Shown piece by piece: positions 18,421-19,564 of a stretch of DNA of 64,000 bases. Location of the stretch: the NCBI GenBank assembly GCA_025351795.1, contig JANXVG010000036.1, positions 1 through 64,000 of the forward strand, read 5' to 3'. The stretch's first letter is position 1. Each line of letters opens with the position of its first letter. The notes beneath the pieces were generated by a model. The model was not told the DNA's origin. It was given only the letters and a program-made list of their open reading frames with translations, and made no database searches. Source of the DNA: Salinibacterium sp. GTDB taxonomy: Bacteria > Actinomycetota > Actinomycetes > Actinomycetales > Microbacteriaceae. Position numbers and translations under genes: made by a program.

Positions 18421-18507
18421 CTTCCGAAATGACGGAGAACTGGCGGATGCTGACTTCGACATCCGCGAAAGCAGGGCTAGGTTGCCGCACATCCGTCATT
18501 TCGGAAG
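18421..18507. repeat. Palindromic element, left copy (flanks DUF559 gene)
   Basis: 16-bp perfect inverted arms CTTCCGAAATGACGGA (18421-18436) / TCCGTCATTTCGGAAG (18492-18507), 55-nt interior with hairpin GCGGATG..CATCCGC. Confidence 0.9.
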
Positions 18508-18533
18508 CGCAGCGCCCAGAAAGTTGCTTCACG

Positions 18534-19406
18534 TCAGGACAAGTGGTCCCCGCGGGAGAGCGCCGCGTGGATGGCCGCCGATACTTCCTCCCAGCGCCGC
18601 TCGACCTGAATGTAGCTGAACCGGAGAACTCGATAGCCGAGACTGCTCAGCACCGCATCGCGGCGGCGGTCTTCCTCGAACGCGTGGGGATTGTTATGGA
18701 ACCGGGCGCCATCCACTTCTACAACGAGCTTCGCCCCCACGAGGAAGTCGACCCTGCCTACCCGGTCGATCTGGCGCTGTTGTTCGAACGGGATGTGGTC
18801 GACGATGAGGTGATACTTCATCAGCGATTCGCCACCGCTCTCGCTGTTTCGGTTCGAAGCCGACAGCTGCCCGCGTCGTCGTCGAGGCGTTTCTGCCAGT
18901 TCCCGGGTCCATCTGGACTGCGAGACGAGCCCTTGGAACAATGCGGACTCGACGGCCGCGAAGGCGACGAGCGGAGACTTCGTTCGCACGATCTCGCGAA
19001 GGCAAAGCAGGGGGCTGGTCACCGATCGGGTACCGATAGCACCCTTATCGGACCAGCTCACCTGCACCCGTGGGCGCGCAAGGGTGGAAAGCCGAACGGT
19101 TTTGTCGGTTGGGCTGCGCAGGGAACGCGCATTCGGATGCACCGTCACCTCAAGGATTCCGGTGGCCGGTGCCCAGATTCCGTAGTGGCGCGCGCCGGCT
19201 AGACCGGTGAGGCGACCGCCCACGCGGCTCGCTCTGATTTCGGGCGTGCTGAGCTCGGGGCAGGCGTAGTGTCCTTGCCGCACACGGATAACGTCGCCTC
19301 GACGCACCGCCGTCGTGAGTTGGTGTGAGGTGTGGCCATCGCGGAGGAGCTCATAGGTAGCGGCAAGCCCACCCCGGCGTCGAACGTCGTAGTAAATGGT
19401 TTTCAT
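18534..19406 (-). CDS. DUF559 (Vsr-like) endonuclease-domain protein with AbiEi-like N-terminal domain
   Basis: N-term HTH-like (GGLAATYELLRDGHTSHQLTTAVRRGDVIRVRQGHYA), C-term RVDFLVGAKLVVEVDGARFHN...FEEDRRRDAVLSSLGYRVLRFSYIQV typical of DUF559. Start set at MKTIYYD. Confidence 0.85.
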   Translation of the reverse strand: MKTIYYDVRRRGGLAATYELLRDGHTSHQLTTAVRRGDVIRVRQGHYACPELSTPEIRASRVGGRLTGLAGARHYGIWAPATGILEVTVHPNARSLRSPTDKTVRLSTLARPRVQVSWSDKGAIGTRSVTSPLLCLREIVRTKSPLVAFAAVESALFQGLVSQSRWTRELAETPRRRRGQLSASNRNSESGGESLMKYHLIVDHIPFEQQRQIDRVGRVDFLVGAKLVVEVDGARFHNNPHAFEEDRRRDAVLSSLGYRVLRFSYIQVERRWEEVSAAIHAALSRGDHLS

Positions 19407-19481
19407 CGCTACAGGATGAGGCTGCTGCGGTAGCAGCATCCCGTCTCTCGACGGTTCTGGGGAGAACGCCTCGCGGCGACT

Positions 19482-19564
19482 GAAATGACGGAGAAGCAGC
19501 CCGGTACCCACGTAGCATCGCTGCTCGCGCGGCGTCGCACGCCGAAACTCCGTCATTTCGGAAG
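19482..19564. repeat. Palindromic element, right copy (flanks DUF559 gene)
   Basis: GAAATGACGGAG (19482-19493) / CTCCGTCATTTC (19548-19559), continuing GGAAG; 54-nt interior with AGCAGC..GCTGCT and GGCGTcgcACGCC. Confidence 0.9.

Follow-up and report, generated by a model that had tools for sequence, protein, structure and literature searches.

Each nuclease gene of the family described here probably forms a cognate pair with its palindromes, and the arms of these palindromes are specific to the gene lineage. The representative in the window (the whole stretch of Salinibacterium sp. DNA that was analysed, 64,000 nucleotides in length) codes for an AbiEi-like region fused to a Vsr-type nuclease, and one palindrome is located on each side of it (Table 1). 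We assign a probability of roughly 0.6 to the interpretation that gene and palindromes constitute a cognate nuclease-palindrome system, wherein AbiEi-like binding is combined with nuclease-driven copying of the palindromes or with exchange of the cassette.

Table 1. Positions of the gene, its palindromes and the predicted arm-reading loop in the window.
Feature	Position	Strand	Description
Downstream palindrome	18421..18507	.	Arms CTTCCGAAATGACGGA / TCCGTCATTTCGGAAG, perfect over 16 bp; interior of 55 nt
DUF559 gene	18534..19406	-	N-terminal winged helix and AbiEi-like region, C-terminal Vsr/EDxHD-type nuclease
Predicted arm-reading loop (approximate codons)	19098..19157	-	Residues ~83-102, including R93-S94
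Upstream palindrome	19477..19564	.	Arms GAAATGACGGAG / CTCCGTCATTTC at 19482-19493 / 19548-19559

Both ~87-bp palindromes are real and are located where the initial annotation had placed them. Their shared orientation, which was emphasized at that stage, is nearly uninformative because any element of the form x-loop-rc(x) presents identical arms on both strands, with the exception of the loop. The DUF559 gene is indeed the single gene between them. It resides on the minus strand, such that the right-hand palindrome is the upstream (promoter-side) copy and the left-hand palindrome is the downstream copy, which corrects the earlier picture. The upstream palindrome has perfect arms of 12 bp and an interior of 54 nt, and its outermost CTTCC is kept on the 3' side alone (19560-19564); the arms of the downstream palindrome are also seen at orthologous loci. 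When up to three mismatches are permitted, the 16-mer arm has six matches in the window compared to 0.56 expected, and none of 100 shuffles reached six. Moreover, the two palindromes are the sole matched pair less than 3 kb apart (a four-site structure) that was detected in the window. The 14-base arm core has no further occurrence in the same genome at one mismatch or fewer, and thus the arm class of the window is not dispersed there.

The start codon of the gene (ATG at 19406) was inferred from homologs, and the frame is open further upstream; residue numbers given herein do not count the initiator methionine. The protein matches Pfam PF04480 (DUF559) at 2.2e-11, and AbiEi profiles match its N-terminal half. 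An AlphaFold2 model (65 family sequences; pLDDT 96.5) predicts a winged helix at residues 1-47, an AbiEi-like middle region, and a nuclease domain at residues 190-289. The best PDB matches are AbiEi (6y8q, the top match, E=1.1e-4) and the EDxHD homing nuclease I-Bth0305I (3r3p), which was found by sequence (3e-6) as well as by structure (TM 0.82 on target), and Vsr is also among the matches. Residues E192, D219, E229 and D245 are invariant across the 65 sequences, and D231, H236 and D249 are nearly invariant. At the window locus there is no adjacent gene for an AbiEii nucleotidyltransferase toxin, the neighbours being an ABC exporter and an alkyltransferase-like (ATL) gene. Searches by Pfam, PADLOC, NCBIfam and fold returned AbiEi and DUF559/Vsr alone, and revealed no HUH (Y1) tyrosine transposase between the palindromes.

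The genome from which the window derives carries seven full-length paralogs, each of which has a palindrome on either side with an arm sequence of its own. These arms are AAATGACGGA for the window gene, and AAATGCAGGA, AATCGACGGA, TTTTCAGGCTGAG, AAATGAAGGAGA, CTTTTCCGGA and ACTCATG for the other six, the last of which is weak and imperfect. In a survey of loci that covered the genus, the family (Microbacteriaceae) and a second family of the same class, left and right arms matched at 124 of 169 loci (score of at least 21), compared to 0 of 57 when flanks displaced by ~490 bp were used (maximum score 16); shorter seeds recover some of the loci missed at this threshold. The arm consensus, [GC]AAAT[TG]CAGGA(G), includes no GTAG or CGTC tag beside a short palindrome. 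Loci of the second family (L208-L236) exhibit the same architecture with other arms (e.g. CCCTGAGATCGTCC and GAAACTGT) and with left and right palindromes of equal length, and therefore the system extends beyond Microbacteriaceae. Identical cores were found in none of 49 within-genome pairs of paralogs versus 1.6 expected, counts that are too small to claim orthogonality. Phages and plasmids yielded one match each, and the gene is therefore not typically borne by either. A scan of genome contigs with the window protein gave no matches, and the same scan with an ortholog gave six loci of the Salinibacterium group.

That the palindromes belong to the gene, as the initial annotation proposed, is borne out by orthologous loci in four other members of the genus and in one other genus, where gene and arms are kept and interiors differ. 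The arms are conserved among orthologs at ~52-61% protein identity while the interiors drift. Relatives within the genus that lack the gene carry no intact palindromes, no arm-like palindrome was seen in the empty alleles examined, and in five of these relatives the stop codons of the neighbouring genes abut, which leaves a clean empty site. Remnants are also found at the ATL site, namely a solo degenerate palindrome (L056, G407:C49) and a fragment of a broken gene that retains one recognisable arm (L061, G311:C13). At another locus (L164, G153:C29), only an upstream palindrome is present, between likely rimM and trmD genes. The genome concerned has two further paralogs (62-72% identity) at other places, which suggests that the gene itself may have moved or duplicated.

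In one genus of seven species, a single site holds three alleles with different arms and flanks that are 91-93% identical, and at the L010 site the cassettes are merely 31-38% identical. Among 344 pairs that share a site, elements average 53% identity and flanks average 80%, and in no pair is the element more similar than both flanks. This comparison therefore indicates fast divergence or allele exchange with no sign of recent homing, and on the same grounds we rejected recent homing or horizontal spread. Sharp cassette edges were also rejected, given that flank homology ends between a few and >100 bp outside the palindromes. The notion of a self-contained ~1.1-kb element is compatible with allelic replacement at fixed sites, but these comparisons do not show that the whole unit has recently jumped.

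The sequence of the spacer between the arms is free, whereas its length corresponds to whole helical turns. Measured from the conserved GGA, spacers are found mostly at 43-47, 54-58, 65-68, 75-78, 86-87 and 96-99, with a best period of 10.5 bp. When each of 45 protein lineages contributes one value, the period is 10.5-10.6 bp (Rayleigh p ~5e-9). Left and right palindromes are equal in length in 85 of 124 elements and are 1-2 bp apart in 24; in most of the remainder the difference is ~10-12 bp. It is 31 and 41 in one case each, and the values 4, 16 and 19, also seen once each, are off the pattern. There is no phasing between left and right palindromes, and none is expected at 1 kb. The helical phasing of the arms indicates that the palindromes are probably double-stranded sites at which two copies of the protein bind the same face of the helix, rather than hairpins. 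Consequently, the 'selected structure' initially put forward is not upheld as a hairpin, and is better described as double-stranded DNA that would be bound as paired sites. In one genus (L387-L389 of G075, L380-L384 of G337 and L385-L386 of G273), the interiors are approximately half self-complementary, unlike those of other genera, and hairpin formation may be important there.

Arm positions 6-7 covary with protein residues 93-94. Arms of the form xCAGGA mostly pair with [SA]R at these residues, GACGGA arms pair with R[A/S/G] (8 of 8, with H or Y at residue 45), GAAGGA arms with CR (4 of 5), and CAAGG/CACGG arms with CQ (4 of 5). The predicted arm-reading loop was placed after strand 84-87 in the AlphaFold2 model, and is supported by these pairings and by the covariation. 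From these patterns we infer that the protein reads the arms, with the understanding that related sequences are not independent and that the covariation, though strong, is short of proof.

The two copies differ in the genes they accompany. An upstream palindrome is found for 15 of 27 nuclease-less AbiEi-like relatives (56%) and for 64 of 106 nuclease-bearing genes (60%), and therefore is most simply an operator. In contrast, a downstream palindrome accompanies the nuclease domain, being present for 74 of 106 genes with it and 0 of 27 without it (p=4e-12), a contrast that is independent of L298, the one member of the 27 that should be discounted as a gene cut by a contig end. On the basis of the nuclease-less paralogs and by analogy with published AbiEi operators, the upstream palindrome of the window is probably also an AbiEi-type operator. 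A TCCACA(G) motif is strongly enriched between the upstream palindrome and the gene start, with 34 of 94 elements (e.g. L099, L117, L127 and L204) carrying it there, whereas the region downstream of the right palindrome has it in 0 of 94. It clusters at ~59 bp (TT[AG]TCCACAGAT, DnaA-box-like) or ~86 bp (CTCCTCCACAG) ahead of the gene start, and a promoter or leader element is possible. Upstream of one nuclease-less AbiEi-like gene (L016, G000:C80, 1212-1265) is a perfect loop-less palindrome of 54 bp, formed by CTCTGCAGACTCCCACTTGTCAGGACG and its complement.

Dispersal away from the gene was searched for two arm classes. The gapped pattern for the AAATGCAGGA class, which allows spacers of 44 to 74 and demands intact arms such that decayed copies are missed, is present in 33 of 383 genomes of the family with up to 43 copies, and the reversed control gave 0. 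Copies number 43 in G356, 37 in G382, 36 in G125, 34 in G029, and nine in the genome of the window. Their spacers are nearly all 55-57 or 66-68, the same as those of gene-flanking pairs. No nuclease gene was found within 1.5 kb at 30 sampled loci, and 49 of 54 copies are extragenic, whereas random positions fall inside genes 76% of the time. None of the 38 copies for which both neighbours were called lies between divergent genes; convergent or tandem neighbours are the rule, in a REP-like manner. In G029 and G037, interiors are alike at unlinked sites (median identity 0.90 in the former; 0.65, up to 0.80, in the latter) but the flanks are not, and therefore the palindrome was copied as a unit. 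Interiors in G125 and G356 are nearly randomised, and the copies there are therefore old. The dispersed palindromes often lie two in tandem, 120-165 bp from each other, in the manner of REP clusters (G029 C3:73892/74014; G125 C1:14845/14986; G058 C1:1279454/1279608; G330 C137:33325/33486).

These data overturned a view that palindromes are confined to the gene, which had been drawn from the arm class of the window and a 14-mer search of the family. They also lend partial support to the resemblance to REP/RAYT systems originally noted, given that the AAATGCAGGA class is dispersed as miniature extragenic palindromes but the class of the window itself is not. Among genomes with at least nine copies, 14 of 18 carry a gene flanked by the AAATGCAGGA class (G022 and G337 were scored on the upstream palindrome alone). 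No nuclease gene was found at E<=1e-30 in G058 (14 copies), G272 (14) or G233 (2), and no gene with matching AAATGCAGGA arms was found in G037 or G041. Gene loss after dispersal would explain such genomes, as would another mobiliser, and either fits.

In the mechanism we propose, the AbiEi-like half would bind one arm, and two molecules on inverted arms at the same DNA face would assemble cooperatively into a complex on the double strand. When formed at the upstream palindrome, this complex would also act as a repressor of the gene, similar to AbiEi. The fused nuclease would cut at or near the paired-arm complex, and repair or recombination would then copy the palindrome elsewhere, as a REPIN-like miniature element moved in trans. 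Alternatively, the entire palindrome-gene-palindrome cassette would be exchanged between alleles at a fixed site. Once activity is lost, gene and palindromes would decay together. The nuclease is thus a putative mobiliser of the palindromes. Weighing against nuclease-driven spread, there is no candidate strand-transfer mechanism, and a Vsr-type nuclease is not a transposase. The main explanation must also accommodate the lack of dispersal of the window's arm class and the orphan copies in some genomes.

Several other explanations deserve consideration. The palindromes could serve autoregulation only, as operators bound by a repressor of the AbiEi type that carries a defence nuclease, with the downstream copy aiding repression via a DNA loop of ~1 kb. 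The dispersed copies would then be decoys or secondary sites of regulation. AbiEi and Rv2827c autorepress, and in their own promoters they bind paired inverted repeats of 23 bp with gaps of 3 and 13 bp (PMC7319586); this, together with the upstream palindromes of nuclease-less paralogs and the phasing of the arms, favours such a role. Nevertheless, we consider autoregulation alone unlikely, as it leaves unexplained both the dependence of the downstream copy on the nuclease and the copying of palindromes to extragenic positions that are unlinked and lack a nearby gene. Left and right palindromes are also unphased, a point of little weight at a distance of 1 kb. Distinctly unlikely, in our judgement, is that the palindrome-gene-palindrome cassette homes as an independent element, replacing the alleles at fixed sites. 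Although the nuclease domain is related to that of the homing endonuclease I-Bth0305I, and although the three alleles at one site, the different cassettes at the L010 site and the clean empty sites are all compatible with homing, the element itself contains the recognised arms and the empty sites examined lack them, which is the reverse of homing logic. The same-site identities and the blurred edges described above also argue against homing.

It is quite improbable that the palindromes are ordinary REPINs moved by another enzyme (e.g. an HUH/Y1 transposase), with the nuclease gene as a passenger or as a regulator that uses the sites. Orphan palindromes in genomes without the nuclease gene and a general likeness to REPINs (PMC3116915) would be consistent with this arrangement, but the arms covary with the nuclease's own residues and bracket its gene at both ends, and helical phasing is unexpected for single-strand hairpin substrates. 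Finally, the palindromes might act as single-strand DNA or RNA hairpins, be they terminators, mRNA structures or REP-type hairpins. Predicted folds are stable (z -4.3 to -5.9), and the interiors are partly self-complementary in G337, G273 and G075. However, interiors are mostly not complementary, spacer length tracks the 10.5-bp helix, and there is no Rfam match, and so we hold hairpins to be highly improbable. As a main role, a hairpin or terminator is largely excluded by the phasing, despite the strength of the predicted folds.

The cognate nuclease-palindrome system that we favour shares features with several known systems. With AbiEi/Rv2827c (type IV toxin-antitoxin) it has in common the N-terminal fold (6y8q) and the upstream pairs of inverted repeats. 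The two operator gaps in those systems are one helical turn apart, whereas the gaps in the present family are larger. Also unlike AbiE, a fused nuclease takes the place of the separate AbiEii toxin gene, a second palindrome pair is located downstream of the gene, and dispersed copies exist. As in REPIN/RAYT systems, palindromic doublets lie on both sides of an enzyme gene, and their inverted ends are conserved while the spacer varies. The gene also diversifies in step with its palindromes, and orphan palindromes occur. Multi-copy extragenic inverted doublets that carry gene-flanking arms are likewise found for the AAATGCAGGA class, but not for the class of the window. However, the enzyme here is an AbiEi-Vsr nuclease rather than an HUH tyrosine transposase, and the arms are not GTAG-type REPs. 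Spacers correspond to helical turns, copy numbers are 2-43, and each gene lineage has its own arm class, such that a family holds many. I-Bth0305I acts as a dimer on a target of nearly 60 bp (PMC3943268), and its nuclease fold and conserved acidic residues are common to the family, but the present gene is not intron-borne, and its predicted recognition sites flank its own gene and do not mark the empty target. IS200/IS605 elements similarly have palindromes near both ends of a gene, although no Y1 HUH domain is present in the window protein, and the arms are paired and phased rather than single imperfect hairpins.

Because the defining features of REP/RAYT, AbiE and IS200/IS605 are not all present, we set the system apart as new in kind, although its logic is REPIN-like. 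We consider the odds roughly even that it represents REPIN-like miniature mobile DNA in Actinobacteria, wherein a cognate AbiEi-Vsr nuclease acts on double-stranded, helically phased paired sites without an HUH transposase, with a readable specificity code and a private palindrome per gene lineage. In the open-access literature, we found no relevant paper that links DUF559 to palindromes, AbiEi or inverted repeats, or that ties extragenic palindromes to this nuclease family, and an earlier description elsewhere is possible.

HUH transposases are known as cognate enzymes of dispersed extragenic palindromes. The gene and its dispersed signal resemble a very small DNA parasite and its enzyme, of a kind not yet described. 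If this is true, a second solution, unrelated to the first, would make it possible to distinguish the general logic, in which a single-copy enzyme gene sustains private palindromes, from one particular chemistry. The code that connects protein residues to arms would open a direct specificity-swap test, and the 10.5-bp rule provides a clear prediction for binding. Likewise, the little-studied DUF559 family would gain a testable role.
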